This document shows positions 14,313 through 29,052 of a DNA stretch of 43,763 nucleotides, piece by piece. Both the position numbers and the translations under genes were made by a program. The stretch is taken from NCBI GenBank assembly GCA_019117305.1, contig DWZZ01000189.1, positions 1-43,763 of the forward strand. Reading direction: 5' to 3'. The number at the start of each line of letters is the position of its first letter. Position 1 is the stretch's first letter. The notes under the pieces were generated by a model. That model was not told the DNA's origin. It saw only the letters and a program-made list of their open reading frames with translations, and did not search any database. The stretch is from Candidatus Mediterraneibacter merdigallinarum. GTDB taxonomy: Bacteria > Bacillota > Clostridia > Lachnospirales > Lachnospiraceae.

Positions 14313-15773
14313 ATGGCGATTGTAAATGATGAACAGGTCATGAAAGTATTGCGGCAGTATAACCCTTGGTGGCGCACACCTTCTGCCATCAAGGATGAAA
14401 GCAAGCCGCAAAAGAGACTGGCCTATTACGAGGCTTTGAAAACGCTCACCCACAAGAGCATCCGAAGGTTTGCCGTTTTATCCGGCATGAGGCGCGTGGG
14501 CAAGACGACGATTCTGTATCAGATCATCGACCACCTGATTGACGAAGGCATAAATCCCAGAAACATCCTGTACGCCACCTTTGATAATCCGATTCTGAAA
14601 CTCGTCAATGCGGAAAATGTTCTGTCCATTTATGAGACGATGTACCCCATTGAAGGCACAAGGTATATCCTTTTTGATGAAGTGCAGTACACCGAAAACT
14701 GGGAACTCTGGATGAAGGTGATTTATGACAGCCGGAAGGATATTCGGCTGATTGCCACGGGATCCGCCAGCCCTGTCTTAGAAAAGGGTTCCGCAGACAG
14801 TGGTACGGGGCGGTGGAGCGTTCTCAAAATTCCTACCATGTCTTTTTATGAGTATTGCAGGCTGCTTGATCTGGATTTGCCGCTCCTGCCGGATGATTTA
14901 CGCTTATCCGAGCTTAAAAGTATGAGTCCGGCGCAGCTTGGCGATTTGATGGATCAATTCACTCCGCTGCAAAATCATTTTAACCGTTATCTTATGATCG
15001 GCGGTTTTCCAGAGCTGGTGTTATCGGACGATGACGCCTACGCACAAAGAATGCTGCGGGAAGATGTGGTGGATAAGGTAATCAAGCGGGATGTGCTGTC
15101 CCTCTTTAATATCCGAAGCCCGCTGTTGATGGAAAAACTGTTTCTCTATCTGTGTATGAACTCCACGGAGATTTTTAACGCAACGACGGCGGCAAAAGAA
15201 CTGGAGAATACCTCTATCACAACGATTGACAGCTACATCAAGGCGCTGGAGATGTCCAATCTCATTTATCTGGCAAAGCCGATGGATGTGGGCAGCAAAG
15301 GCGCTCTAAAAGGGAAGCCGAAAATTTTTATTGCAGATGCAGCTATCCGCAATGCAGTGCTGATGATTGACGATGTGCTTTCGGACGAAAAGGAACTGGG
15401 CGCAATGGTGGAAACCACCGTCTACAAGCATATGGTTTCCTTCTATCAGGGCAGCACGGCAAGCCTCGGCTATTTCAGAAAGGCAAAGGACAATCAGAAA
15501 GAGGTCGATGTGGTGGTAGAGCTTCCCCGCCAGAAGATTCTCTGCGAAGTGAAATACCGTAACAATTCTCACATTGCGGCAACGGATGCCATTGTCGAGC
15601 TATGCCAGGACGAAAAATCCAAAGTCACTGACGCTTTTTTAATCACAAAACGGCTTGACGATTTTGGCGTCACCAAACATGAAACAAAAGTACCCATTCT
15701 GCGCGTCCCTGCCACCGCTTTCCTCTATATCTTAGGAAAGACAGAAGCAGAGGGACAAAACGGAAAACTATAA
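14313..15773 (+). CDS. AAA-family ATPase with DUF4143 domain
   Basis: The 486-residue protein belongs to the ATP-binding AAA_14/DUF4143 family common in gut anaerobes. The N-terminal ATPase has a Walker A (GMRRVGKTT, ~residues 58-66) and Walker B (YILFDEVQ). The C-terminal DUF4143 part carries restriction-endonuclease-like residues: the segment FRKAKDNQKEVDVVVELPRQ, then CEVKYRN, matches the D-(x)n-ExK pattern. The family's role is not established; these genes often sit in accessory DNA. TGGAGGTG precedes ATG 14313. It is a single-gene unit with its own promoter and terminator, just before conjugative-element remnants, and codon choice differs from the flanking chromosome by eye. Confidence 0.88.
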   Translation: MAIVNDEQVMKVLRQYNPWWRTPSAIKDESKPQKRLAYYEALKTLTHKSIRRFAVLSGMRRVGKTTILYQIIDHLIDEGINPRNILYATFDNPILKLVNAENVLSIYETMYPIEGTRYILFDEVQYTENWELWMKVIYDSRKDIRLIATGSASPVLEKGSADSGTGRWSVLKIPTMSFYEYCRLLDLDLPLLPDDLRLSELKSMSPAQLGDLMDQFTPLQNHFNRYLMIGGFPELVLSDDDAYAQRMLREDVVDKVIKRDVLSLFNIRSPLLMEKLFLYLCMNSTEIFNATTAAKELENTSITTIDSYIKALEMSNLIYLAKPMDVGSKGALKGKPKIFIADAAIRNAVLMIDDVLSDEKELGAMVETTVYKHMVSFYQGSTASLGYFRKAKDNQKEVDVVVELPRQKILCEVKYRNNSHIAATDAIVELCQDEKSKVTDAFLITKRLDDFGVTKHETKVPILRVPATAFLYILGKTEAEGQNGKL

Positions 15774-15852: not shown

Positions 15853-16104
15853 ATGGAGCAATACCAACTTGTAATTGCAGAAAAGCCCAGCGTTGCACAG
15901 GCTTTGGCCGCAGTGCTGGGTGCGAAAAAGAAGCAAGATGGCTATCTGGAAGGTAACGGCTGGCTTGTATCGTGGTGCGTCGGCCATTTGGTAGAACTGG
16001 CGCAGCCGGAAGCCTATGATGAAAAATACGCAAAATGGAGATATGACGATCTGCCGATTCTCCCTGCAAGCTGGAAATATCAAGTAAGGCCATCAGCTAT
16101 CTAA
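15853..16104 (+). pseudogene. DNA topoisomerase III N-terminal fragment (conjugative-element type)
   Basis: The 83-residue frame starts with YQLVIAEKPSVAQALAAVLG, the Toprim start of type IA topoisomerase III, and continues GWLVSWCVGHLVELAQPEAYD as in TopB-like proteins of clostridial conjugative elements. A full protein is about 700 residues. Homology ends after SWKYQV near 16085, where the sequence changes frame into a relaxase C-terminus. The catalytic Tyr domain is absent, so no topoisomerase activity is expected. The start is ATG 15853 behind GAGGTAAG. This is debris of an integrative conjugative element. Confidence 0.8.
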
Positions 16105-16749: not shown

Positions 16750-17021
16750 TAAAAGCGGTTATACCAAAAGTCAGATTATCCCGAATTATATGAACTATTG
16801 TAGCCCTTTCCTCGTTCTCCCCTCTAATACTACAATTTTCAAGGAAACAAATGGCTATGGATAAGGAAATGAGATAGGTTTTTCCTTCTAAGTATGCGAA
16901 CAGTTTTTGGATCATACGAAATGACGCAACTCTTTTTTGATTGGCGAATGTGGCAATCACATTTTGCTCTAACAGTGAAAAATTCAAACAAGAAGTTCAA
17001 GAAAAATTACGGTTTATGCAC

Positions 17022-17050
17022 TTGTAAAACTACGGATATTCGCATATAAT
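17022..17050 (+). promoter_or_regulatory. Promoter TTGTAA-17-TATAAT
   Basis: TTGTAA (17022-17027), a 17-bp spacer and a perfect TATAAT (17045-17050) precede the HTH gene and probably drive the kinase-regulator operon. Confidence 0.75.
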
Positions 17051-17090
17051 ATAGCTTGTATTGTTGTATCAACCAAAAGGGAGGCGGCGT

Positions 17091-17282
17091 ATGAAAGGAT
17101 ATCTTTCCATCCGGGAAATTTCCTATAAATGGGGCGTATCGGAGCGCCGTGTTAATCAATATTGCACACAGGGACGCATTCCAGGTGCAGAGCGTTTTGG
17201 ACGCTCTTGGGCAATCCCGGAAAATGCCGTAAAACCGGCGGATCCCCGGAAAGCAAACCGCACAAAAGAGAAAGACGTATGA
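17091..17282 (+). CDS. Small HTH DNA-binding protein
   Basis: The 63-residue protein starts with YLSIREISYKWGVSERRVNQYC, a MerR/excisionase-like helix-turn-helix, followed by a wing (GRIPGAERFGRSWAIP) and a basic tail. ATG 17091 follows GGGAGGCGGCGT closely; the frame extends 30 nt further up without a better start. Such proteins are common in clostridial conjugative elements as small regulators or excisionases. Here it is the first gene of the operon that continues with the histidine kinase 64 nt later. It may control that operon or be left over from the element. Confidence 0.75.
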   Translation: MKGYLSIREISYKWGVSERRVNQYCTQGRIPGAERFGRSWAIPENAVKPADPRKANRTKEKDV

Positions 17283-17346
17283 TGTGCCGTTTGCAGCAGG
17301 AACCGAATACAGGTAAATTCCAACCAAATACAGAGGAGGTTTCGCC

Positions 17347-18633
17347 TTGAAGTCGTTTTTTAAGAAATTACATATCCGGTTTTTCGACTGGCCTCTGGAT
17401 TTTCGTGTTCGACTGTTTCACATACTGGCCTTTGGCGGCATCGCCATCAGTTTTTTTACAGTGATTATCAGTCTAATCATGGGCATGTGGGAAACCGCAG
17501 GACTGGCTGCCGTTCTGATTGCCTTTTCCCTGGGGCTAATCCTGTTCACCCAGAGGACAGGCAAGTACCAGGCAGCTTACTTCCTCACCGTCACGGTCAT
17601 TTTTATGGTGGTTTTGCCAATGATGTTCTTCACTTCGGGCGGTCACCGCAGCGGCATGCCATCGATTTTCCTTCTGGCTGTACTCTTTACAGTGCTGATG
17701 ATAAAGGGAAAGGCGGCGCTCCTGATTTCCCTGCTGGAAATCGCGGAATATTCCGCCGTGTGCGTTTTTGCCTATTATCATCCGGAATTTGTAACCCATT
17801 ATGAAACAGAAGGCCAAATATTGGTAGACATTATTTTTGCTTTCACCTGTGTCAGCCTGATTTGCGGCGTGGTGCTCTTCTTTCATTTAAGGGAGTATGA
17901 CCGCCAGCGTGAGCTGCTGTATGAGCAGAACGAAAAACTGCGGCGTTACGATGCCTCCCGTTCTGTCTTTCTGACTACCGTATCCCACGAGGTGAAAAAT
18001 CCTCTGAATGCCATCAATCTCTACGCCCGCGACACTTTGGAACTGATGGGCGAGGAAGATCCGGACGCTTTGATGATCCAGAGTAACCAGCAGGTCATCG
18101 AAAAAATGGTGGTGCGCATCGACCGCATTCTGACCGACCTAAAAGATACCGTGGCCATAGAGCAGGGGCGTCTGGCGTTGAACCTTGCGCCCATGCGGCT
18201 TAGTAAACTGTTGAAGGAAGTCTCGGGCACCTACTTCGGCAAAGATGCTTCCGGCGGCAACGAGCTTGTATTGGATATAGACGAAAGCCTACTTCCGATC
18301 AGCGCAGATTACGCAAGGATCGTACAAGTGGTTACAAACCTGTTGTCCAATGCCATACAACATACAAAAGCCGGCAGAATCAGGATTTCCCTCTATAAGC
18401 AGGACGGTGAGCAGATCGTCGTTATTGCCGATAATGGCGAAGGAATGAAGGAGGAGCTGCAGGAGCAGGTATTTAAAGGGTACATATCCTCGGACAAAGA
18501 ATACTGGCGCCACGGCATCGGCCTGTATGTATCCCACCAGATTGTAGAAGCCCATGGTGGCAGGATCTGGATTGAAAGTAAACTGGGGGAAGGCACTACG
18601 GTAACCTTTACCCTGCCTGATGAGGAGAAATAA
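17347..18633 (+). CDS. Membrane sensor histidine kinase
   Basis: The 428-residue kinase has about six N-terminal membrane helices (residues ~20-185) with very short outside loops and no extracellular sensor domain. That points to sensing in or at the membrane. A short helix (REYDRQRELLYEQNEKLRRYD) leads to the HisKA box SHEVKNPL (phospho-acceptor H214). The HATPase domain has N335 in NLLSNAIQHT, G1 DNGEG and G2 GIGLYVSHQIVEAHGG. Initiation is at TTG 17347, behind GAGGAGG 8 nt upstream; no nearby ATG fits. The response regulator begins 3 nt after its stop, so the two form a cognate pair. The intramembrane design resembles kinases that respond to cell-envelope attack, but the signal here is unknown. 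Confidence 0.92.
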   Translation: MKSFFKKLHIRFFDWPLDFRVRLFHILAFGGIAISFFTVIISLIMGMWETAGLAAVLIAFSLGLILFTQRTGKYQAAYFLTVTVIFMVVLPMMFFTSGGHRSGMPSIFLLAVLFTVLMIKGKAALLISLLEIAEYSAVCVFAYYHPEFVTHYETEGQILVDIIFAFTCVSLICGVVLFFHLREYDRQRELLYEQNEKLRRYDASRSVFLTTVSHEVKNPLNAINLYARDTLELMGEEDPDALMIQSNQQVIEKMVVRIDRILTDLKDTVAIEQGRLALNLAPMRLSKLLKEVSGTYFGKDASGGNELVLDIDESLLPISADYARIVQVVTNLLSNAIQHTKAGRIRISLYKQDGEQIVVIADNGEGMKEELQEQVFKGYISSDKEYWRHGIGLYVSHQIVEAHGGRIWIESKLGEGTTVTFTLPDEEK

Positions 18634-18636
18634 GCT

Positions 18637-19341
18637 ATGAAAGAGGAAAAACCGATTATTCTTGTGGTGGAGGACGAAACGGATGTGCTGCGAATCAACG
18701 CCAGGATGCTGATACGCCGGGGATATACCGTGTACACAGCGGAAAACTGCCGTCAGGCATACGAGCGGATGGAGGCTCCAACACCCGATCTTCTGATTCT
18801 GGATATCATGCTGCCCGATGGAAGCGGCTATGATATCTGCGAAAGGTTTCGCAGCACGAGCGACCACCCGGTGATCTTCCTAACCGGCAAAGGCGAGACC
18901 TGCGATAAGGTCGAAGGTCTTGGGCACGGAGGCGATTATTATCTAACCAAGCCCTATGATCCGGACGAACTGCTGGCCGTGGCTGATATGCTCATCAAGC
19001 GCCACCTGCAGACAAAGAAAAAGCGCGAACAACTGACGAGAATCGTGAAAGGTTCCCTTGTTCTGGATATCCCAAAATTTAAAGCAACGGTGAACGGTAC
19101 AGATGCTGAACTTACCGCAAAGGAATTTGCGCTGCTTCTGCTTCTGGTGCAAAGCGAGGATAAGGAGGTGCCTCCCCATGAGCTGTATGAAAAAGTATGG
19201 GGTACGCCCTCTGGAGAGGATATCCGCACCATACGGTTTCATATCAAGAATCTACGCAGGAAAATCCACGCGGATGATGCGAATGATTATGATATCGTTT
19301 CCGTATACGGGAAGGGGTATATGTTCACCACGGTGTGCTGA
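18637..19341 (+). CDS. OmpR-family response regulator
   Basis: The 234-residue protein has a receiver domain (~1-120) with the acidic pair in VVEDETD, phospho-acceptor D56 in LILDIML, the switch Thr in FLTGK and the conserved Lys in LTKPYDP. A C-terminal winged HTH (~140-232; LTAKEFALLLLLV, HIKNLRRKI, VYGKGYMF) is of the OmpR/PhoB type. It is coupled to the kinase. An identical 23-bp box starts 19 bp after its stop and again before the receiver-only gene at 20693, each just upstream of a poor -35 region, as expected for targets of an OmpR-type activator. I infer that these boxes are its binding sites. Confidence 0.93.
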   Translation: MKEEKPIILVVEDETDVLRINARMLIRRGYTVYTAENCRQAYERMEAPTPDLLILDIMLPDGSGYDICERFRSTSDHPVIFLTGKGETCDKVEGLGHGGDYYLTKPYDPDELLAVADMLIKRHLQTKKKREQLTRIVKGSLVLDIPKFKATVNGTDAELTAKEFALLLLLVQSEDKEVPPHELYEKVWGTPSGEDIRTIRFHIKNLRRKIHADDANDYDIVSVYGKGYMFTTVC

Positions 19342-19359
19342 AACGAAATCATCCGAAAC

Positions 19360-19382
19360 ATGAGTTTTTCCTAACAATTCAA
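19360..19382 (+). promoter_or_regulatory. Regulator box, copy 1
   Basis: This 23-bp sequence, containing TTTTTCCTAACAATTCAA, is identical to the one at 20564-20586. It lies upstream of CTGCTATGTTTAAT, a possible extended -10 (TGCTATGTT) with no good -35, suiting an activator-dependent promoter. A dyad TTTCTGCTA/TAGCAGAAA (19395-19403, 19416-19424) follows. Confidence 0.6.
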
Positions 19383-19430
19383 AAAAAGGAGCTTTTTCTG
19401 CTATGTTTAATATGGTAGCAGAAAGAATGC

Positions 19431-19470
19431 GCAAAGGCTCAGGGCGGCATCTGCTGCCCTGAGCCTTTGC
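19431..19470 (+). promoter_or_regulatory. Large leader hairpin before the first lipoprotein
   Basis: GCAAAGGCTCAGGGCGGCA (19431-19449) pairs with 19452-19470 over 19 nt, with a single G-U pair. The inner pairs must open to form the loop. It has no T-run and ends 5 nt before AAGGAGG, so it may insulate or regulate translation of the gene at 19487 rather than terminate. Confidence 0.6.
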
Positions 19471-19486
19471 ATATTAAGGAGGAAGC

Positions 19487-20527
19487 ATGAAAATGAAACA
19501 TCTCAGAGTCTTTACAATTTTGCTCTGCCTGCCCCTTTCCATAACAATTCTTAGTGCCTGCGGCGATAAGGAACCGAACGCAAATTCCAATCCATCGTCT
19601 GCTTCTGGCGGCAGTACGCAGTCTGAAAATGCACAGAATAGCGATGCCCCAGAAGAGGACGCTCCCAGCATAGAGTTTGCAGACATGGCCTGGAGCATTG
19701 ACGGCATAACCTATTCCTTTTACACTGACGGAACACTGGAGGTGACAGACGGCACCGACAGCGTATTTGGCGGGTATGAGTGGGACGGACAGGCCGGGCT
19801 GATCACGATGGACGGTTTCGCCGTGGAGCTGCTATTGGATGGAGAAGGCGATTTGTACATGGAGGGTGAGGACGGCGAATATTACCTCATGACCTATGCT
19901 GGATTTGCCGGCGGAGGAGACCACGAGAGCGGTGGAATGCCGAATCCAGACGATACTCCGGACTATGATCTGGACTATAATCTGGACTATGATACAGATG
20001 ATGACGGCAGCATAGGCTATGAAGCCTTAGACAATGGAAAAATCCGCTTCTATGACTACGATAATAATGTATCAATTACTTACCCTGAATGGATGTTGTG
20101 CATGGAGGATGCGAACCCCGGCACCGTGACTATAACCGACGGCAACGGCGGATATGTAGTAGGCGAAAATATTACCGACATGTATTGGAATTACAGCGGA
20201 AGTGACGATGAAATGATCGCCGCTTATATGAACGAACTTGTTACGGTATATTTTGAGGAATTGTATGGCGATGGCTGGGAAGTCTTTTATCTAAATAATA
20301 TGAGTTCCGACGAAAGCAATCGGATCGCCACAGCCGAGATGAATTTGTACAATGACGACTATGATATCTATATCCGGACTTTGATCTATCATACTGTGCA
20401 GAATGGAGAAAATACGGGCACCGTCATGGCAAAGACTTTCTTTGCTTCCTTTGATGACTATAATGACGGCGGCTCTCAATTTCAGACTCTTTACGACGAG
20501 GTCAGAAACCTGGTTCCTGTACAATGA
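19487..20527 (+). CDS. Acidic lipoprotein 1 of the two-component cluster
   Basis: The 346-residue product has a lipoprotein signal peptide ending ILSAC. A Ser/Asn-rich tether follows, then a small beta domain (MAWSIDGITYSFYTDGTLEVT, with WDGQAGLITMDG), and a very acidic linker with Asp/Tyr repeats (YDLDYNLDYDTDDDG). The C-terminal domain of about 150 residues (ISITYPEW-like start, here VSITYPEWMLC) may adopt a PsbP/Mog1-like fold; that is my inference from the pattern. GGAGG supports ATG 19487; ATG 19493 is possible. It should sit on the outer face of the membrane. With a regulator box and a leader hairpin directly upstream, it looks like a first target of the two-component pair. Acidic repeats could bind cations or cationic peptides. 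Confidence 0.8.
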   Translation: MKMKHLRVFTILLCLPLSITILSACGDKEPNANSNPSSASGGSTQSENAQNSDAPEEDAPSIEFADMAWSIDGITYSFYTDGTLEVTDGTDSVFGGYEWDGQAGLITMDGFAVELLLDGEGDLYMEGEDGEYYLMTYAGFAGGGDHESGGMPNPDDTPDYDLDYNLDYDTDDDGSIGYEALDNGKIRFYDYDNNVSITYPEWMLCMEDANPGTVTITDGNGGYVVGENITDMYWNYSGSDDEMIAAYMNELVTVYFEELYGDGWEVFYLNNMSSDESNRIATAEMNLYNDDYDIYIRTLIYHTVQNGENTGTVMAKTFFASFDDYNDGGSQFQTLYDEVRNLVPVQ

Positions 20528-20563
20528 GGATGACAGTCCGAAAGCGGGCGAGGAATTCAAAAT

Positions 20564-20586
20564 ATGAGTTTTTCCTAACAATTCAA
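20564..20586 (+). promoter_or_regulatory. Regulator box, copy 2
   Basis: This is an exact copy of the 23-bp box at 19360. The match continues at lower identity through TTTCTGCTATG, a 12-nt gap and GTAGCA(A/G)AA, so about 80 bp of promoter and leader are duplicated. It controls the receiver-only gene. Confidence 0.6.
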
Positions 20587-20638
20587 GAAACGATGTTTTT
20601 TCTGCTATGCTGATTACAGTAGCAAAAGGAACGCACGA

Positions 20639-20676
20639 GGTCCGGAGCAGCGTTCACTGCGCCGGACCGTTGCTTT
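20639..20676 (+). promoter_or_regulatory. Terminator-like leader hairpin
   Basis: GGTCCGG (20639-20645) pairs with CCGGACC (20662-20668). One A-G mismatch follows, then GCAG/CTGC. CGTTGCTTTTT comes after, only 3 nt before the perfect ribosome site AAGGAGGTGA. It could attenuate the receiver gene. Confidence 0.5.
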
Positions 20677-20692
20677 TTAAGGAGGTGACCTT

Positions 20693-21046
20693 TTGTCCAG
20701 GATATTGTATGTCGGCACAGATCGCACGATGACTGAGATGACCGGCAGGCTGCTGAAAAGAAACGGTTTTGATGTCCAATGTGCGGTTGGTCAAGAGAAA
20801 GCTTTTGCCGCGATTTGTACACAACAGTTCGCCGTGGTAATCGCAGATTTAGAAGAAAGCGTGTATGACGGGATTCGATTTTGCCAGAAAGTAGCACAGT
20901 ATTCAACAGCAACGAAATTTCTGCTTATTTCAGGAAACGAGAAGGACGAAGAGGCTGCCCTGCTCGGTGGTGCGGACGACTGGCTCAAGAAGCCATACAG
21001 TATGAGGATATTGTACGCTAGGATCCGGGCATTGCTGCGGCTGTAA
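20693..21046 (+). CDS. Stand-alone atypical receiver domain protein
   Basis: The 117-residue product is a single CheY-like receiver with no output domain. It starts at TTG 20693 behind AAGGAGGTGA. The phospho-acceptor position is kept (D52 in VVIADLEE) and so is the Lys (LKKPY). The N-terminal acidic pair that binds Mg2+ is degenerate: RILYVGTDRTM has Gly8 and Thr9 where DD is usual, leaving only D10. Phosphorylation may therefore be weak or absent. It carries the same upstream box as the first lipoprotein gene. A plausible role is a brake or phosphate sink for the kinase at 17347, or a protein-protein switch. Both are inference. Confidence 0.85.
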   Translation: MSRILYVGTDRTMTEMTGRLLKRNGFDVQCAVGQEKAFAAICTQQFAVVIADLEESVYDGIRFCQKVAQYSTATKFLLISGNEKDEEAALLGGADDWLKKPYSMRILYARIRALLRL

Positions 21047-21065
21047 CAGAGGAGAGATGGAGTAT

Positions 21066-21510
21066 ATGAAGACGGCAAGGAAGTTTATATGTGTGCTGCT
21101 GGCCGCCCTGCTGTCGGCGCTGCTTTTAAGTAGTTGTGGCGCCAGCGGCTATGTGGGTACCTGGCACTGTGAGGCCGGCGATGCGGATTTCCAGATGGAA
21201 CTGGAAAAGGACGGCCAGGTATTTTTCTATCAAACGCTTAACGACTTTGTCTACACCGGGACTTGGGATGAGACAGAAGGTTACGTTACCGGCGTGACAC
21301 TGGAAGAACGTACCGGGATTGACGAGGACAACGCCCTATTCTGCCGGATTTGGTAGGGTGCCGAACCCGAATAGGCTGCCGTCAACAAAAGTGTACGGAA
21401 AGGAGGTTATATAAACGCAGAAGATTTCTGTATAAAAATCCGTAAGAGAGGAGGACTATACGGTATACATCTCCCATTTGGGGGATATGGGTATCTACTA
21501 CTTTGAGTAA
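21066..21510 (+). pseudogene. Broken lipoprotein gene (lipoprotein 2)
   Basis: From ATG 21066 (behind GGAGAG) the frame encodes a lipoprotein signal ending LLSSC and a domain like the start of lipoprotein 3 (YVGTWHCEAGDADFQMELEK against FLGAWDDDESEQSFIFNEDG). It stops at 21356 after ALFCRIW. Downstream, another frame (21451-21510) reads EDYTVYISHLGDMGIYYFE and stops, which looks like the lost C-terminus. Two ribosome-site-like sequences in between (AAAGGAGG near 21400, GAGGAGG near 21448) have no ORF. I infer a frameshifted or partly deleted paralogue; the 96-residue truncated lipoprotein could still be made. Confidence 0.6.
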
Positions 21511-21543
21511 GCAAGTAAGAAACATGATTTTAAGGAGGTATTT

Positions 21544-22560
21544 ATGAAGGCAAAAGTTCTGAAACTGTGTTCCCTGCTCATGGCTCTGTTGGTCATGACA
21601 TCTCTGCTCGCAGCCTGTGGAGGCGGTGGCGACAATCCGTTTTTGGGCGCTTGGGACGACGATGAAAGCGAACAGAGCTTTATCTTTAACGAGGACGGCA
21701 CCGGCACCCAGGCCAGCTACAGCGGCGCCATTGAATTCACCTATACCTGGGACGGCGATACGGCTACTATTACCAGTGAAGAGTTGGGGATCAGCGCCGA
21801 AGTGACTTTGGAAGACGGGGTACTGTACACAGATTATTCCAGCTTTGTCAAGGTAGATGAGGCGGAATACGTTCCCGAGAACCTGGATGAGGACGACAGC
21901 GAAGAGGGATACGAGGACGGTTCGGAGGATACCGGGGACAGTGATACCGAGCTGGACTTCTGGCTCGGCGAGTATGCAAACGACAATGGCACCCTCACCA
22001 TTGACATTTCCAGCGGTATGCTTTATTACGCAATGGGCGTCAGCACCGAGGATGGTTTCTCGACCGCATCCGGCACGCTCACGGAGGACAGCAGTGACCC
22101 ATATGTGCTGGAGGAGTCGGATTTCATTTTCTCATATGATACATCGGACGACTCCATCGAGGTCTCGCTTCAGGAAGGCGTGACTGATATGGATCATTAT
22201 ACTGGCTGGTATTACTATGTCGGCCCGGTGGGGGGATCTGACTCTTCGGAAGGCGATGCAACGCTTGATGTGGAGGCTCCAGACAGTATCGAAGCATGGT
22301 ACGGCGAATATGCGGGTGACGCAGGCACGCTCACGATTACAGAATCCTTGGAGGACATGGTCGATTTCGAGTTGGTGACGAATGACGGCTGGATGTCCGG
22401 TACCTGGATGGTGAGCGATGCGGGTCTCGGCGTAATTGAGAGCGGCGAGCTGTACATTATCTATAATGTGGAGGACGGATCCATCGAGATTACAGGCAAG
22501 ACGGAGGCTGCCAACGAGAATAATGCTTCCTATATCGGTGTGTATTACCCGGTAGAATAA
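21544..22560 (+). CDS. Acidic lipoprotein 3 with tandem repeats
   Basis: The 338-residue product has the signal MKAKVLKLCSLLMALLVMTS and lipobox LLAAC. A first beta domain (FLGAWDDDES, then TYTWDGDTATIT) is followed by an acidic linker and two related modules of about 100 residues. One starts DFWLGEYANDNGTLTIDISS and the other EAWYGEYAGDAGTLTITESL; their ends match too (HYTGWYYYVGP, SYIGVYYPVE). These lipocalin-like or immunity-type beta modules are common in Clostridia lipoproteins without known function. AAGGAGG precedes the ATG. It lies between the broken paralogue and the DUF4234 gene, all in one direction with short gaps. Confidence 0.82.
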   Translation: MKAKVLKLCSLLMALLVMTSLLAACGGGGDNPFLGAWDDDESEQSFIFNEDGTGTQASYSGAIEFTYTWDGDTATITSEELGISAEVTLEDGVLYTDYSSFVKVDEAEYVPENLDEDDSEEGYEDGSEDTGDSDTELDFWLGEYANDNGTLTIDISSGMLYYAMGVSTEDGFSTASGTLTEDSSDPYVLEESDFIFSYDTSDDSIEVSLQEGVTDMDHYTGWYYYVGPVGGSDSSEGDATLDVEAPDSIEAWYGEYAGDAGTLTITESLEDMVDFELVTNDGWMSGTWMVSDAGLGVIESGELYIIYNVEDGSIEITGKTEAANENNASYIGVYYPVE

Positions 22561-22594
22561 ATCACAAGAGACAAATTGAAGGAGGACAACAGAT

Positions 22595-22939
22595 ATGAAA
22601 GAACGTAATCTTGCATTGTGTGTCATTTTTTCCATCATCACTTTCGGCATTTATGGAATTTACTGGTTTATCAAAATCAACAATGACGCGAACGAGCTGG
22701 CAAATCCGCCGAAAAGGACATCGGGCGGGGTAGCTTTCCTGCTCACGCTCATTACATGCGGCATTTACGGCATCTACTGGGCCTACAAAATGGGCAAACA
22801 GTTGGATTCGGCGCTTGAGCAGCGCGGTATGCCGGCAAAGAACGGCGCGGTACTGTACCTGATCCTCAGCGTGGTAGGACTCGGCTTTATCGGCTGGATC
22901 CTGATGCAGAATACCATCAATTCCATGATCTCTGATTAA
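22595..22939 (+). CDS. DUF4234-type membrane protein
   Basis: The 114-residue protein has three membrane segments and two copies of the phrase FGIYGIYWFIKI / CGIYGIYWAYKM, diagnostic for DUF4234. The first follows a short cytoplasmic start (MKERNLALCVIFSIIT). A third hydrophobic stretch is VLYLILSVVGLGFIGWILMQ. The biochemical role of the family is unknown; members often sit beside zinc-ribbon or lipoprotein genes. GAAGGAGG sits at a good distance from the ATG. It starts 34 nt after lipoprotein 3 and a hairpin follows at 23046. Confidence 0.88.
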   Translation: MKERNLALCVIFSIITFGIYGIYWFIKINNDANELANPPKRTSGGVAFLLTLITCGIYGIYWAYKMGKQLDSALEQRGMPAKNGAVLYLILSVVGLGFIGWILMQNTINSMISD

Positions 22940-23045
22940 AACAATACATAAGCTGCCTGTACTTTGTTTTTCAAACTGCCTGATGTGTGGTCATTTCCAT
23001 CTGGCGGTCTAGGAGAATGAGAAAAAGGGATCGGGGCGGCAAGCT

Positions 23046-23090
23046 CAGCCTCTGCGCAAGGGCATCAGCCGTTACGCAGGGGCTGTCTTT
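23046..23090 (+). terminator. Hairpin, probable weak terminator
   Basis: CAGCCTCTGCG (23046-23056) pairs with CGCAGGGGCTG (23075-23085), one G-U pair, followed by TCTTTTC. It lies in the 216-bp gap between the DUF4234 and DUF3137 genes. Nothing else was seen there. Confidence 0.5.
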
Positions 23091-23155
23091 TCAAGCGGCG
23101 ATTTGAATGCAAACAACAATGCACCATTATATGAAAAACAAGGCGGTGAACAAAT

Positions 23156-24106
23156 ATGGACAATAATCTTCAAAACACACAGCTTGACGATCAGAAGATG
23201 GAAAACCTGCGAAAGCGCATAAAACTATCCAAATACATAATGATCGCCGGCGGCGTATGTTTCGGTATCATGGCGATCATATTCCTTGCCAGTGGGAAGA
23301 CTACACTGGGCACAGATAGTCCGGAGGGACTGGCTGCCATTTTGTTGGCGTTAGCCGGTTTTGTGCTGCTCGTTGCGGGATTGGTGGTTAAGCAAAAGGC
23401 CGGCGCGGCGCAGAAGCATATTGCGAACAACTATGCCCGGATTGTTCTTGATCGGCTGATGGATCGGCTGGATACATTTGACCACGGCAAGCATGTCGAC
23501 AAATATTACCTGAACCAGGATTTCGGCTTTCCGGAATACGACTGCACTGGCTTTTGCGGCGATTATGTCAGGGGCGTGCTTCGGGGAGTGCCTATGGAGT
23601 TTTGCGAGTTTGAGTTGCAGGAGGAGCATGTGACGGAAGACAGTGACGGGGACACGGACGTCTCTTACGAGACCGTATTCTACGGCGTTATCGTTGTCTG
23701 TCGCCACAATCTTGCGCTGAGTGATGCGGTTGTAGCAACACAGTTTAAAACTTACGAGAATGCCTACAATGCCGATTCGGAAAACTTTTACAATGCTTTT
23801 TCCGTCAGATGCACAAGTGAGCAGGATGCGGCGCTGGCGCTTACGCCCGATTACAGGCAAAAGCTGCTGGAATTGTCCGCAGAGAGAGGCAAACGGTTTG
23901 CCATCCGCTTTCTTCAGGACGGTACGCTGCTGCTTGTAATAAAGGATATGAATCTTTTCGAGATGGGCAATTCCGAAAACACGGTGCAGCTTGTAGAAAA
24001 GCTGGAAAAGGAAACGGAAGATTTTATCAACATCCTTGATACGCTCGCACTTCCAGCGCAGAAAGTGACCGATCATCCAAACGCAGAAAGGAGTGAATTA
24101 CGATGA
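23156..24106 (+). CDS. DUF3137-like membrane protein
   Basis: The 316-residue protein has a cytoplasmic N-terminus and two membrane helices (~27-48 and ~58-80). A large soluble domain follows: GVLRGVPMEFCEFELQEEHV, then TVFYGVIVVCRHN, and LQDGTLLLVIKDMNLFEM near the end. This order of GxxxGxxxxxxExxLxxE, a GxxF-like strand and a late YI/NLFE element fits DUF3137, a family often found next to LemA. The function is not known. Its stop overlaps the start of lipoprotein 4 (ATGA), so the two are translationally coupled. Confidence 0.72.
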   Translation: MDNNLQNTQLDDQKMENLRKRIKLSKYIMIAGGVCFGIMAIIFLASGKTTLGTDSPEGLAAILLALAGFVLLVAGLVVKQKAGAAQKHIANNYARIVLDRLMDRLDTFDHGKHVDKYYLNQDFGFPEYDCTGFCGDYVRGVLRGVPMEFCEFELQEEHVTEDSDGDTDVSYETVFYGVIVVCRHNLALSDAVVATQFKTYENAYNADSENFYNAFSVRCTSEQDAALALTPDYRQKLLELSAERGKRFAIRFLQDGTLLLVIKDMNLFEMGNSENTVQLVEKLEKETEDFINILDTLALPAQKVTDHPNAERSELR

Positions 24107-25020
24107 AGAAGCTGATAGCTGTTTTTCTGGCTGCAGTCATTACGCTGACTCTGGCCGCCTGTGCAAACGAACAACAGAATAGTGACGTATCAAACAACAC
24201 ACAAAGCGGGAACCCGGATTCCAGCAGTACGCAAAGCCTGGATCCAGTTCCCAGCGCGGATCCAGGCGAAAATGATACAGCCATATTCGCGGCAACCGAA
24301 GGCACATGGCGTTTAGACGGCGAAGAAGGCACAGCAAGTATTTATATGGATGGCGAAGGCGGATTTATCGCCTATTACGCCAGCGGCTCTGTAGAGGCTT
24401 CAGGGTATCTGGAATATGTGGACGAGTACGGAGACGGCAGTGGCCGATATGATCTGTATGACGGCGAGCTTGGCTTAATAAACAGCTTCTACTTCGATTC
24501 AGACACACAGATCCATATGGGAAATAACAATGGCAATATTTATATCAAGGAAGGCTCTGAAACTGATACTACGCCGGAAATCGGTGTTCTTGTACCCAAA
24601 ACAAGATTTACCGGGCTGGCTCAAATCGAGAACAACAATGATTTCCACGGCGGCTATTATTATGCCGATAGAACTGAGGACGGATTTACCACGATTATAA
24701 ACAGCGGCTTTACTAACGATTTTTCCGCTGCTGACGAGACGATAGAGGAATATATTGGCCGTTGCGTTGACCTGATTGGTGAATTTGAGTATCGGGATCT
24801 CGAAATTGAGGAAGCAACACTGGACTCCTGGCCGGCGTACTATCTCACCTGGCTGGAGGGAGAAAATGAGGATACCCGCCAATGGGATGCTTTACTGGTC
24901 ACGACCGATCTTTATACTTATATTTATGCTTTTGATACGAAGGCAGATTATGCAGAGGAAATGCTCGATACCTGGTATGAGGTCCTTGACGGTCTCACAC
25001 TCGATTTTCCCTCTGAGTGA
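24103..25020 (+). CDS. Lipoprotein 4
   Basis: The 305-residue product has the signal MKKLIAVFLAAVITLTLAAC, with Cys20 as lipid anchor. A Ser/Asn/Gln tether leads to a beta domain (EGTWRLDGEEGTASIYMDGE) and a C-terminal domain of about 140 residues (SWPAYYLTWLEGENEDTRQW, LLVTTDLYTYIYAFDTKADY). The latter is laid out like the C-terminus of lipoprotein 1 and like PsbP/Mog1-fold lipoproteins. It is coupled by ATGA overlap to the DUF3137 gene, so the two may act together at the membrane. Ligand and function are unknown. Confidence 0.8.
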   Translation: MKKLIAVFLAAVITLTLAACANEQQNSDVSNNTQSGNPDSSSTQSLDPVPSADPGENDTAIFAATEGTWRLDGEEGTASIYMDGEGGFIAYYASGSVEASGYLEYVDEYGDGSGRYDLYDGELGLINSFYFDSDTQIHMGNNNGNIYIKEGSETDTTPEIGVLVPKTRFTGLAQIENNNDFHGGYYYADRTEDGFTTIINSGFTNDFSAADETIEEYIGRCVDLIGEFEYRDLEIEEATLDSWPAYYLTWLEGENEDTRQWDALLVTTDLYTYIYAFDTKADYAEEMLDTWYEVLDGLTLDFPSE

Positions 25021-25107
25021 GGCAGCTAAGATCTTTATGTTGTGAATCGCCATTTTAACGCGTTTCCAACGAATGGTAATCAATCAGAAAATACGGGAGG
25101 TGTTTTT

Positions 25108-25671
25108 ATGAACGGAATGATTATTGCAGCGGTCGTTGCCGTCCCTCTGCTGATCATCGGCATCTATATCGGCGCAACCTATAATGCGCTTGTGAAGCTG
25201 AAAAATTCAGTAGAGGAAGCGTTTTCCACGATGGACGTCTATCTGAAAAAGAGATGGGATTTGATCCCAAACATCGTGGAAAGCGTAAAGGGTTATGCAA
25301 AGCACGAGGCGCAGACGCTTCAAAATGTGATTTCTGCCCGCAATGTGCGCTACTCAGATATGACGGAGGAGCAGAAGCTGCAGGCCAATACGGAGCTTGC
25401 CAGAGGCCTTGCCGCCATTCATGTGCTTGCGGAGCAATACCCGGATTTGAAGGCGAACCAAAACTTTCTTGATCTGAACAATCAGCTTCAGAGAACGGAA
25501 GAGGATATTGCCAACGCAAGAAAGTATTATAACGCCGTTGTCCGGAATTACAACAATAAAACAGAGATGTTTCCGTCCTCTATTGTGGCAAACCTGTTCA
25601 AATTCGGTAAGCGCCAGATGTTTGTCATAGAAGATGAGACGGAAAAGGAAGCGGTAAGGGTGCAATTCTGA
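25108..25671 (+). CDS. lemA: LemA family protein
   Basis: The 187-residue protein has an N-terminal membrane segment (MIIAAVVAVPLLIIGIYIGA) and then the LemA helical core: YNALVKLKNSVEEAFSTMDV, LKKRWDLIPNIVESVKGYA, ISARN, YPDLKANQNFLDLNNQLQRTE, and FPSSIVANLF. ATG 25108 is behind GGGAGGTG; the open frame starts earlier without support. LemA proteins are widespread with an outward or inward helical bundle and no settled biochemical role. They are typically paired with DUF2207 or TPM-domain proteins. The DUF2207 gene overlaps its stop (TGATG), matching that pairing. Confidence 0.94.
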   Translation: MNGMIIAAVVAVPLLIIGIYIGATYNALVKLKNSVEEAFSTMDVYLKKRWDLIPNIVESVKGYAKHEAQTLQNVISARNVRYSDMTEEQKLQANTELARGLAAIHVLAEQYPDLKANQNFLDLNNQLQRTEEDIANARKYYNAVVRNYNNKTEMFPSSIVANLFKFGKRQMFVIEDETEKEAVRVQF

Positions 25672-27380
25672 TGAAAAGGTGTAAAGTGATCTTTTCTTTT
25701 ATTATATTGCTTGTGATGATGTCGGTGGCGGTTTTTCCAGCGCAGGCGGCAGACTATTCCGAGGAACCTTATTATATCACCGCTTATTATGTGGATATTG
25801 ATGTATCCGAGGATAATGTGCTCAGCATTACGGAAGAAATAGACGTTTATTTCAATGAGGCGCGGCACGGCATTTACAGAACCATCCCGAAACGAAACGA
25901 GGTCGTGCGGGCCGACGGCTCCACGGCGGTCACGCGGGCGAAGATCCGTGATATATACTGCAGCGAGGACTATGAAAAATCCACGCAAAACAGCGACCTC
26001 ATTTTGCAGATTGGTGATGCTGATACTACCGTTACCGGAGATAAGCATTATACGATCTCCTATGACTATGTGCTTGGACAGGATGTGGCGGACGGCTACG
26101 ATGAGCTGTACTTCAACATCATTGGCACCGGGTGGGATACCTATATCAATAACGTTAGCTTTAGGATCACCATGCCGAAGGAGTTCGACAGCAGCCTGCT
26201 GGGATTTTCCACAGGCGGATATGGGTTTACCGGTTCAGATATCGTAGAGTATTATACCGATGGGATGGAGATTGAAGGATTTCTCTGGCAGGAACTGGAG
26301 CCCTACCAGGCTCTGACCGTAAGGCTTAAGCTTGAGGAGGGTTATTTCTACTTCAACCAGGTTCTGCATGTGATAAAGCTCAGCACTATGGTGATCATCC
26401 CTCTTATATGCTTGGTTTTTGTATTGTTCGTATGGATGAAATACGGCAGGGATAAGAAGGTTATCGAAACCGTTGAATTCTATCCGCCCGAGGGAATGAG
26501 CAGTGCAGACGTAGCGTATTGGTATAAAGGAAAGTTGCCCAAAAAGGATATTGTTGCCCTGCTCATTGAGCTGGCAAATGAGGGCTATATTGCCATCCAT
26601 GACGGCGATGGAACGGGCAAAGGGGCAGAATATACCATAGAGCGTATAAAGCCATATCCTCACGATTTGGACGAGGATAAAAGGCTGTTTTTTGAGGGAC
26701 TTTTTGAAAGCGGCAAGGACATCGTCACAGGGGACGACTTGAAAAACAAATTCTATCGCACCCTGAATCAGATTTCCTCCAATTACGGGCATTCCGGGAA
26801 GAAAGGCCGCATACATTCCCTGACCTCCGCGCGGTGGCAGCTCCTTTGTTGGTTGCTTGTAATTGCCTGCTTTGTTCTTGATGTTGTGATACTTGCCAAT
26901 ATCCTGGGCGGGAACGAGCGGTTTATTCCGTTTGTAATCGGACTGCCGATTCTTGCCGCAGCCTTTTGGCTTGCGCGGTATGTCAGCCAGCGCACAGACG
27001 AGAGCCACAGGAATCTGGAGAAGATAACAGGGTTCAAGAAGTTTTTGGAAACGGCGGAAAAAGATCGGCTGGAAATGCTTGTTCATGAAGATCCGAAATA
27101 TTTTTACAACATCCTGCCCTTTGCCTATGTGCTGGATGTGTCGGACAAATGGGTAAATCAGTTTGAAAACATTGCTATTGAACCACCCGAGTGGTACAGC
27201 GGACATGATGTATTTACGGCTGCTACCATGTGGCACGCCATGGATCGGACACTGAGCAGTGCGGCCAGCGCCATGACCTCTGCACCGCGGCAGAGCTCGT
27301 CTGGCGGCGGGTCCAGCAGCGGTGGCGGTGGCGGCGTTTCCGGCGGCGGATCCGGCGGTGGCGGCGGCGGAAGCTGGTAA
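25671..27380 (+). CDS. DUF2207-domain membrane protein
   Basis: The 569-residue protein has a signal peptide (cleavage near AQAAD). The outside DUF2207 domain (~28-230) includes VDIDVSEDNVLSITEEIDVY and HGIYRTIPKR. A membrane helix follows (~240-262), then a cytoplasmic part with a winged-helix-like segment (DIVALLIELANEGYIAIHDG). A pair of helices (~390-440) and a soluble tail come next. The end is a low-complexity Gly/Ser run finishing GGGGSW, usual in this family, where it is thought to mediate interactions. It overlaps lemA by the TGATG junction. The known co-occurrence with LemA supports one envelope complex; its role is undefined. Confidence 0.9.
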   Translation: MKRCKVIFSFIILLVMMSVAVFPAQAADYSEEPYYITAYYVDIDVSEDNVLSITEEIDVYFNEARHGIYRTIPKRNEVVRADGSTAVTRAKIRDIYCSEDYEKSTQNSDLILQIGDADTTVTGDKHYTISYDYVLGQDVADGYDELYFNIIGTGWDTYINNVSFRITMPKEFDSSLLGFSTGGYGFTGSDIVEYYTDGMEIEGFLWQELEPYQALTVRLKLEEGYFYFNQVLHVIKLSTMVIIPLICLVFVLFVWMKYGRDKKVIETVEFYPPEGMSSADVAYWYKGKLPKKDIVALLIELANEGYIAIHDGDGTGKGAEYTIERIKPYPHDLDEDKRLFFEGLFESGKDIVTGDDLKNKFYRTLNQISSNYGHSGKKGRIHSLTSARWQLLCWLLVIACFVLDVVILANILGGNERFIPFVIGLPILAAAFWLARYVSQRTDESHRNLEKITGFKKFLETAEKDRLEMLVHEDPKYFYNILPFAYVLDVSDKWVNQFENIAIEPPEWYSGHDVFTAATMWHAMDRTLSSAASAMTSAPRQSSSGGGSSSGGGGGVSGGGSGGGGGGSW

Positions 27381-27437
27381 AGCCCATGTTTTTGGCATCC
27401 GAAAATTTGAACTATTAAGAAAAAAGGGGGAACGCAT

Positions 27438-27638
27438 ATGGAGCTGTGGGCAGCAGGGATTGCCCTGCTTATCATAGCGGCGGGTATCCTGGTACTGATT
27501 TTGTGTGGAAAGAAAATCCATAAAGGCTTGCGAATCGCCGGAGTATGTGTACTTGGCGCACTATTTGCGGCGGTGCTGGGATATATTGCCCTTACATTCT
27601 TGTTTCTGGATTCACTGCATTTTTCTCCCCCTGGATGA
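27438..27638 (+). CDS. Small two-helix membrane protein, possibly truncated
   Basis: The 66-residue product has two membrane segments (ELWAAGIALLIIAAGILVLI and a second at ~33-57). A GGGGG stretch precedes ATG 27438. It ends DSLHFSPPG at a TGA, after which the same frame stays open and reads the tail of an unrelated SIR2-like protein. The C-terminus may therefore have been cut by a recombination joint. It is the last gene of the lipoprotein/LemA cluster. Confidence 0.55.
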   Translation: MELWAAGIALLIIAAGILVLILCGKKIHKGLRIAGVCVLGALFAAVLGYIALTFLFLDSLHFSPPG

Positions 27639-27839
27639 GTCTACGGCTTCCGGGAAGGTGTTATCAGAGAAACAGGCCGGTTATCATTAAAATATCCGTT
27701 TTGGCAGATGACAGCGAGAAATCCGAAAGCTGTCTATGCCTGTATCAATAAAGGTGAAGCGGTTTGCCCAAAAGAAATCACAGTGCAGTCTATTTGCATA
27801 AACAGCAATATTAACCGTGTGATCGGAGACTTGGAGTAA
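27639..27839 (+). pseudogene. SIR2-family C-terminal remnant A
   Basis: This frame has no start of its own. It reads YPFWQMTARNPKAVYACINK, then GEAVCPKEITVQSICINSNI, a conserved C-terminal stretch of clostridial SIR2-type NAD-dependent deacylases/ADP-ribosyltransferases, and stops at 27839. The catalytic Rossmann fold (GxxxS, HG motifs) is absent. A second, similar tail lies 160 bp on at 28002. It marks the edge of the island. The assignment is from memory of the family. Confidence 0.55.
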
Positions 27840-28001: not shown

Positions 28002-28226
28002 ATGACTTCATTTTGGGTGCGCAATAAACATAACACCCCTACGATTATCCGTTTCCCCTTTGAAAAGATGGTAAAGGAAAACGGCGGCTGGTCGCTGGTC
28101 CGTCTGAATCTCCGGGAGGCCATTGTACCGGAAAGTCTCGGAAAGCGGGCAGTGGGAATCAATGAAGACATTGCCAGAAGTATAGAAGATATCAGAAAAG
28201 AGGCAGAGAATGATGGGAGCAGATAA
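28002..28226 (+). pseudogene. SIR2-family C-terminal remnant B, fused upstream of the macrodomain gene
   Basis: The 74-residue frame has a usable start (ATG 28002 after GGAGG). Its text aligns with remnant A and with sirtuin C-termini: NTPTIIRFPFEKMVKENGGW, LVRLNLREAIVPESL, AVGINEDIARSIEDI. The homologous part begins near 28035; the first ~10 residues look like joint sequence. It overlaps the macrodomain gene by 17 nt, the arrangement expected if a full sirtuin gene once preceded it. Firmicutes and related microbes pair zinc macrodomain hydrolases with SirTM-type sirtuins for protein ADP-ribosylation. The catalytic part is gone, leaving the eraser without this writer. Confidence 0.55.
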
Positions 28227-29052
28227 AAAACAGGAAGAGCGGCTGGATTATCTTCTTCATGAATTCAAGGAAGATTCCGGCAGATACAGAGATCTGGAGA
28301 CAGGAAAGGATTACGGAGAGAAGAGAATGCTTCTGCGCTCTCTTATGAACATCCGGATGCCGGGGAAAATAAATGAAAACGTTGTGAAAGTGCAGGATGA
28401 ATTTCTGACCGAGGAGGCCAGAGAAAAAGGAATTGTTGAGCTTACGGATATTCCGACGGCGGCGGAGCAGTACGGGAGCAGCCATCCGTATGCGGATAAA
28501 ATTTCCGTCTGGCAGGGGGATATTACGAGACTGCGTGCGGGAGCTATTGTCAATGCGGCGAATTCGCAGATGCTGGGGTGTTTTGTGCCCTGCCATAAAT
28601 GTATAGACAATGCTATTCACAGCGCGGCCGGTATTGAGCTCAGGGAAGCATGCAGCCACTATATGAACCGCAGACGGATGCAGTACGGCGCCCGCTATGA
28701 GGAGCCCACGGGCCAGGCGGTTTTGACAAAGGGTTACAATCTGCCCGCGGATTATGTGATTCACACAGTTGGTCCCATTGTGGGAGGCAGCCTGAATCAG
28801 AAGCTGAAGGATGATCTGGAAAGCTGTTACCGGAATGTGCTGGAGTGCTGTGTGGAGCATGGGATCCGTTCCGTGGCGTTCTGCTGTATCAGCACAGGGG
28901 AATTTCATTTTCCGAACGATGAGGCGGCAAAGATCGCGGCTGATACCGTGACCGGCTTCCTTAAAGAGCATGATCCGGACTTTGACCGGATTATTTTCAA
29001 TGTGTTCAAAGATGTGGACCGGGAGTTGTATGAGGCGGAATTGAAGCGGTAA
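28210..29052 (+). CDS. Zinc-type macrodomain protein-ADP-ribose hydrolase
   Basis: The 280-residue protein has a helical N-terminal extension (~1-95) and a macrodomain. The motifs are GDITRLRAGAIVNAANSQML and GCFVPCHKCIDNAIHSAAGI, with the Cys/His set that binds zinc in the SauMacro/SpyMacro class. A late GEFHFPN element follows ISTG (diphosphate loop). These enzymes remove ADP-ribose from modified proteins, often undoing a SirTM sirtuin encoded beside them. The sirtuin-like tail B overlaps its start, so the operon seems to have lost the transferase. ATG 28210 follows GAGGCAGAGA, a weak ribosome site that fits coupling to the upstream frame. Confidence 0.9.
   Translation: MMGADKKQEERLDYLLHEFKEDSGRYRDLETGKDYGEKRMLLRSLMNIRMPGKINENVVKVQDEFLTEEAREKGIVELTDIPTAAEQYGSSHPYADKISVWQGDITRLRAGAIVNAANSQMLGCFVPCHKCIDNAIHSAAGIELREACSHYMNRRRMQYGARYEEPTGQAVLTKGYNLPADYVIHTVGPIVGGSLNQKLKDDLESCYRNVLECCVEHGIRSVAFCCISTGEFHFPNDEAAKIAADTVTGFLKEHDPDFDRIIFNVFKDVDRELYEAELKR

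Follow-up and report, generated by a model that had tools for sequence, protein, structure and literature searches.

Why is a two-component system followed, on a single strand, by a series of lipoprotein and membrane-protein genes whose families are common in the bacterial envelope and yet have little or no assigned function (LemA, DUF2207, DUF3137, and DUF4234)? The question is raised by a block of genes at positions 17091-27638 of the window, a 43,763-nucleotide stretch from Candidatus Mediterraneibacter merdigallinarum that is the whole of contig C37 in a 2.41-Mb, 218-contig assembly. We favor, with a probability of about 0.58, reading the block as a two-component regulon of the cell envelope that is mobile, self-contained, and equipped with interchangeable exported cargo. 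Its parts are of known kinds, and together they form an envelope module that probably regulates itself. A specific regulator with a defined putative operator would offer a direct handle, via the inducer, on the role of the cargo.

Table 1. Genes and predicted control elements of the block (positions in the window).
Feature	Position	Strand	Basis and remarks
HTH_17 small DNA-binding protein	17091-17282	+	Pfam HTH_17 27.0 bits, at cut-off; directly 5' of kinase
Six-TM sensor histidine kinase (HK)	17347-18633	+	TTG start; HisKA 8.7e-7, HATPase_c 8e-28; hydropathy
OmpR-family response regulator (RR)	18637-19341	+	Response_reg 2e-25, Trans_reg_C 1e-18
Putative operator/promoter, copy 1	19351-19430	+	5' of LP1; core 19362-19380; -10 TATGTT inside palindrome
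Leader hairpin 1	19426-19475	+	Inverted repeat after copy 1; fold z = -8.6
LP1, acidic lipoprotein	19487-20527	+	Lipobox LSAC; pI 4.05
Putative operator/promoter, copy 2	20555-20634	+	5' of receiver gene; core 20566-20584
Leader hairpin 2	20627-20685	+	After copy 2; fold z = -3.0
Stand-alone atypical receiver	20693-21046	+	Response_reg 1.6e-12
LP2, short lipoprotein, 99 aa, probably truncated	21057-21356	+	Lipobox LSSC
LP3, acidic lipoprotein with DUF5640-like stretch	21544-22560	+	Lipobox LAAC; DUF5640 just under cut-off
DUF4234 membrane protein	22595-22939	+	3e-42
DUF3137 protein	23156-24106	+	2e-14; two TMs, long helices, cytosolic domain
LP4, acidic lipoprotein, GENEDT-type C-terminal domain	24103-25020	+	Lipobox LAAC
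LemA	25108-25671	+	2e-52
DUF2207 membrane protein	25671-27380	+	DUF2207 5e-27, DUF2207_C 6e-36; Gly-rich tail ends GSW
Small two-TM protein, 66 aa	27438-27638	+	No family assigned

All genes listed in the original prediction are present and run in the same direction (Table 1). They had been described as many overlapping or closely spaced, which holds for two overlaps (4 nt between the DUF3137 and LP4 genes and 1 nt between the LemA and DUF2207 genes) but not for the other gaps, which reach up to about 220 nt. The one gene reported as broken corresponds to LP2, which the neighboring frames suggest is truncated. Because of their lipoboxes and TM segments, the products are placed in the envelope; LP1, LP3, and LP4 share a pI of 4.05 and carry net charges of -48 to -72. 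As read from the gene calls, the neighbors of the block are housekeeping genes: a phosphoglucomutase-like gene flanks it on the left and LacI-type regulator, PTS, and sucrose-hydrolase-like genes flank it on the right. A sub-threshold Toprim fragment (15853-16104) also lies to the left, where the sequence probably contains the remains of a mobile element.

The signaling genes had been taken for an intramembrane-sensing kinase with an OmpR regulator. The pair is indeed of the OmpR type, with a HisKA and HATPase_c kinase adjoining a regulator that combines a receiver with Trans_reg_C. However, hydropathy indicates about six hydrophobic segments at the N terminus of the kinase and not the two-TM layout to which the term intramembrane sensing normally refers. 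The kinase scores 16.5 bits against MASE7 (cut-off, 26.2), and MASE7 matches at an E-value of <0.01 in 3 of 12 relatives. Relatives with 52 to 96% identity occur in loci L030, L130, L131, and L093. The HTH_17 protein is 98% identical to its copy in Mediterraneibacter catenae, and homologues with 34 to 43% identity are encoded immediately 5' of a six-TM kinase in L094, L098, and L141. The stand-alone receiver was correctly labeled a pseudo-receiver, because it has lost the acidic Mg-binding pair (ED replaced by GT, or by CR in a relative) though it keeps the phospho-Asp and the Lys. The acidic pair is missing in all three receiver orthologues found, and orthologues are present at the equivalent position in L130 (59%) and L131 (39%).

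What argues most for self-regulation is an 80-nt direct repeat that the original prediction overlooked and whose copies are 80% identical. Its 19-nt core, GAGTTTTTCCTAACAATTC, has two sites at ≤2 mismatches in the assembly, both in the block, where about 0.03 would be expected in uniform random sequence; no site at ≤3 mismatches was found in 0.78 Mb of control loci. The putative operator is conserved in L030, L130, and L131. In L130 and L131, whose regulators are 74% and 62% identical to that of the block, the core has two mismatches each and lies between the regulator and receiver genes. The putative operator thus accompanies the regulator in three independent loci and is duplicated in the window, and from this association we infer, in agreement with the original prediction, that the block regulates itself. 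In the most economical history, the regulator-operator-receiver arrangement would be ancestral and LP1 would have been gained together with the second operator copy. An alignment of five such elements retains both a palindrome over the -10 hexamer (TATGTT, TATGCT, or TATACT) and a hairpin just 3' of it. Across the palindrome and leader hairpin, 93% of the cells are paired and 6 pairs are changed on both sides, versus 44 to 66% paired and at most one such pair in controls with slid partners; because a close relative supplies one of only five rows and the window itself supplies two, this covariation is support and not proof.

Because no operator copy was found 3' of position 20634 in the block, control of the region 21057-27638 would depend on transcription continuing through gaps of 187 and 216 nt. 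The same absence speaks for a reading that we regard as rather unlikely, namely, that the block consists of two adjacent units: one, HK-RR-LP1-receiver-LP2/LP3, would extend to about 22560 and be controlled by the operator, and the other, DUF4234-DUF3137-LP4-LemA-DUF2207-small TM, would be a separate membrane operon outside its control. Such an operon would fit with downstream pieces that are found by themselves. In L048, DUF4234-DUF3137-LP4 (DUF4234 92% identical) directly follow a guaA-like gene and have no kinase 5' of them; genome G315 (L029) retains part of LemA, DUF2207, and the small TM gene and nothing else of the block; and kinase-free DUF3137-LemA and LemA-DUF2207 pairs exist. The division into two units is, however, at odds with the occurrence of the LP4 domain, DUF3137, LemA, and the small TM protein, each of them near kinases of the same family in other bacterial families, and with the shared direction of every gene.

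Do these genes recur together? The recurrence that the original prediction had made its check was seen for the combination of kinase, regulator, and envelope cargo but not for the block as a whole: no second complete copy was found in the genomes searched, and L048 and L029 carry downstream pieces without the kinase. When DUF3137 was used as the query, the GTDB collection yielded only M. catenae (85%) and one metagenome-assembled genome (87%), and the kinase sensor as the query yielded more related loci. HK-RR-receiver, partly with LP3, was found again in two other families of Clostridia. The unit in L130, from another family of the class, encodes HK (72%), RR (74%), the receiver, an SLH-domain protein, and a protein that is 79% identical to LP3 over residues 132-338, the last two-thirds, before the contig ends; in L131, HK (58%), RR (62%), and the receiver are followed by predicted exported proteins of 2,520 and 1,443 aa. 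The genes 3' of more distant kinases encode a secreted protein in L093, two lipoproteins in L096, DUF3137 in L102, lipoproteins and a small TM protein with 40% identity to the two-TM protein of the window in L099, and a lipoprotein together with TPM, LemA, and secreted proteins in L095. Giant surface proteins follow the kinase in L094 and L141, which have HTH_17 5' of the kinase and serine recombinases nearby. A relative of the small two-TM protein also lies beside DUF3137 in L043. LP4-domain proteins are encoded 3' of a related kinase in L129 and L133, and an LP4 profile run against 246 genomes of the order matched its own locus, a contig of G114 (the HK-RR-TPM-LemA module of L095), and one protein weakly and within the N terminus only. 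LP4 relatives were found only in loci with the six-TM kinase family or in copies of the block.

Kinase-family pairs without adjacent exported cargo are also found (L097, L098, L101, and L104 to L107). We compared kinase-family pairs, drawn by kinase homology with the window excluded, with other OmpR pairs from related genomes. A lipoprotein was encoded within the next three genes in 4 of 15 kinase-family pairs versus 1 of 52 controls (P = 0.008), and any exported cargo in 7 of 15 versus 9 of 52 (P = 0.026), values that are indicative only because they come from a crude open reading frame caller, simple signal-peptide rules, and related pairs that are not fully independent. DUF3137 and DUF2207 genes sampled for themselves mostly had no six-TM kinase alongside. 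Taken together, the kinase hub appears enriched for exported cargo, and LemA, DUF3137, and DUF2207 appear to be general units that it sometimes carries. Because related blocks carrying different cargo turn up sporadically elsewhere in the Clostridia, we regard the block as one example of a kind of envelope-regulating module that is real and recurs. The pairings of LemA with DUF2207 or DUF3137 cited in the original prediction were seen in other loci too (L033 to L035, L039 to L042, L044, and L095). As in LemA-DUF2207, LemA-DUF3137, and LemA-TPM pairs, LemA in the block adjoins DUF2207 and has DUF3137 two genes upstream; however, the pairs elsewhere are mostly kinase-free, whereas those of the block lie 3' of a two-component hub, together with LP4, DUF4234, and the small TM gene.

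The proposed mobility is borne out by the comparison with M. catenae, which shares 16795-27678 in three stretches of 96, 91, and 86% identity between different flanks, and by the sporadic presence of parts of the block in 3 of 58 species of the genus. The M. catenae copy lacks 19595-23015, and a second deletion connects LemA with DUF2207 (9-nt overlap at the junction). As judged from these sequence comparisons, the block has moved horizontally and is now decaying. The kinases of L130 and L131 were likewise absent from the other genomes examined of their families (those of G718 and G595). Could the block then be the surface program of a conjugative element, serving adhesion, mating, or exclusion and now stranded in the remains of that element? 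The differing mobile flanks, a MobC-like gene 5' of the M. catenae copy (read from the gene calls), and the serine recombinases beside the related units in L094 and L141 would agree with such an origin. We nevertheless consider it very unlikely, as the block itself has no transfer genes and several related loci (L093 and L096) have no obvious element genes nearby. Viral contigs contained no close relatives of DUF3137 or DUF2207, plasmids contained no DUF3137 and only distant DUF2207 plus one partial kinase, and phages contained no kinase and only generic LemA matches.

The original prediction had also suggested defense, perhaps against cationic antimicrobial peptides with the acidic lipoproteins as decoys. 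Three lipoproteins with a pI of 4.05, two-component control, and the mobile context would suit resistance to such peptides or to phages, but we rejected this as the main explanation and consider it the least probable of the readings discussed here. Against known antiphage systems, PADLOC gave only weak partial profile matches, none of them credible. Only the acidity favors peptide defense, and acidity alone is no evidence. Bce- and Lia-type peptide modules have a two-TM intramembrane-sensing kinase and a Bce-type ABC transporter or LiaF; in contrast, the kinase of the block has about six hydrophobic segments, and neither such a transporter nor a LiaF-like gene is among its genes. Moreover, related loci have SLH and giant surface proteins in place of the acidic set.

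One experimental precedent, by analogy, points to a possible stress role for DUF2207. A Streptococcus mutans mutant of SMU.243, a member of the same family, was reported to have reduced acid and oxidative tolerance and reduced biofilm formation, whereas its response to cell-wall antimicrobials was not greatly altered (PMC10457818). SMU.243 is described as adjoining uppP (PMC10457818), whereas DUF2207 of the block sits with a two-component pair and lipoproteins. For DUF3137, an AF2 model (pLDDT 69) had a single solved fold under an E-value of 0.001, the mycobacterial lipid-transport accessory protein TtfA (6t84; E-value 8e-4; TM-score 0.35 of query and 0.56 of target). This weak likeness is a lead only: no relation to TtfA was found by sequence, and the block contains no MmpL transporter. 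Compared with viral proteins, the model gave one uncharacterized match with low TM-scores. A structure prediction for LP4 that used no alignment was too poor to interpret (pLDDT 41.5).

How might the regulon work? We hypothesize that an envelope or membrane cue activates the six-TM kinase and that the regulator, once phosphorylated, binds GAGTTTTTCCTAACAATTCAA and probably also the palindrome over the -10 hexamer. Transcription would then pass the leader hairpin into LP1, the receiver, and the lipoprotein genes, and read-through would reach DUF4234, DUF3137, LP4, LemA, DUF2207, and the small TM protein. The receiver may serve as a tuning or decoy partner and not as a normal phospho-switch. The lipoproteins, together with LemA, DUF2207, and DUF3137, could assemble at the surface and in the membrane and thereby adjust or protect the envelope, and modules may exchange their exported cargo, possibly along with the operator. 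OmpR-family systems with an adjacent envelope operon share the membrane kinase, the winged-helix regulator, and the adjacent target promoter. The block differs from them in its six-TM sensor with weak likeness to MASE7, a degenerate receiver as a putative target gene, a duplicated putative operator with a palindrome over the -10 hexamer and a leader hairpin, and mobile, exchangeable cargo. In the titles and opening lines of abstracts of the open-access literature, we did not find this gene combination or operator logic described, and the literature search returned no mention of MASE7.

Repeated elements of other kinds occur in two related loci. In L099, a different element of 56 nt occurs three times, upstream of the kinase, of a lipoprotein gene, and of the small TM gene. 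In L095, yet another element, of 38 nt, occurs twice, upstream of a lipoprotein gene and of the gene for a 909-aa exported protein. Each subfamily thus seems to own an operator that is reused within its locus. We tentatively propose, as a possibility and not as our expectation, that Clostridia harbor a family of mobile envelope modules built on a hub in which a six-TM kinase is paired with an OmpR regulator, often alongside HTH_17. Cargo would be gained and lost as operator-plus-gene cassettes, with the repeated operators acting as both control sites and recombination points, and would include LP4-type lipoproteins, DUF3137, LemA with TPM or DUF2207, and SLH and giant surface proteins. The block also suggests that gut Clostridia pass whole regulated surface programs horizontally. 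An operator-like stretch 3' of the L093 regulator is not claimed as a further case, its spacing to the -10 hexamer being off by 5 nt. In L102, a hairpin directly follows a promoter-like TATACT 5' of DUF3137.

Large serine recombinase genes, two or three in series, lie near both related units in which HTH_17, kinase, OmpR-family regulator and giant surface protein are combined (L141:2442-9952 and L094:3927-19041), and one of these two units is on an IMG/VR contig. The recombinases are a possible vehicle by which such modules move. In L048, a locus with no kinase upstream, a guaA-like gene stops and DUF4234-DUF3137-LP4 (LP4 being an acidic lipoprotein) starts a few nucleotides later (L048:5383-6712). 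Mobile elements have known integration sites at guaA 3' ends.

The window also has, outside the block, the genes listed below, of which the exported protein, judged by eye from its sequence, reads like a pectinesterase-type surface enzyme.

Genes outside the block in the window
Feature	Window position	Remarks
AAA_14 + DUF4143 ATPase	14313-15773	Immediately left of mobile remains
Macro-domain protein	28210-29052	Right of block; Pfam Macro, 1e-37
Exported protein, 1463 aa	3905-8296	Anchor-like C-terminal end

Within the block, DUF4234 is separated from DUF3137 by a GC-rich, stem-forming sequence (window 23030-23105), most of which is retained in M. catenae. This sequence may terminate or attenuate transcription, or it may serve as a processing site. 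The small two-TM protein may be a regular partner of DUF3137. At another locus (L043:15187-17139), DUF3137, a relative of this small protein and a lipoprotein are encoded by consecutive genes.
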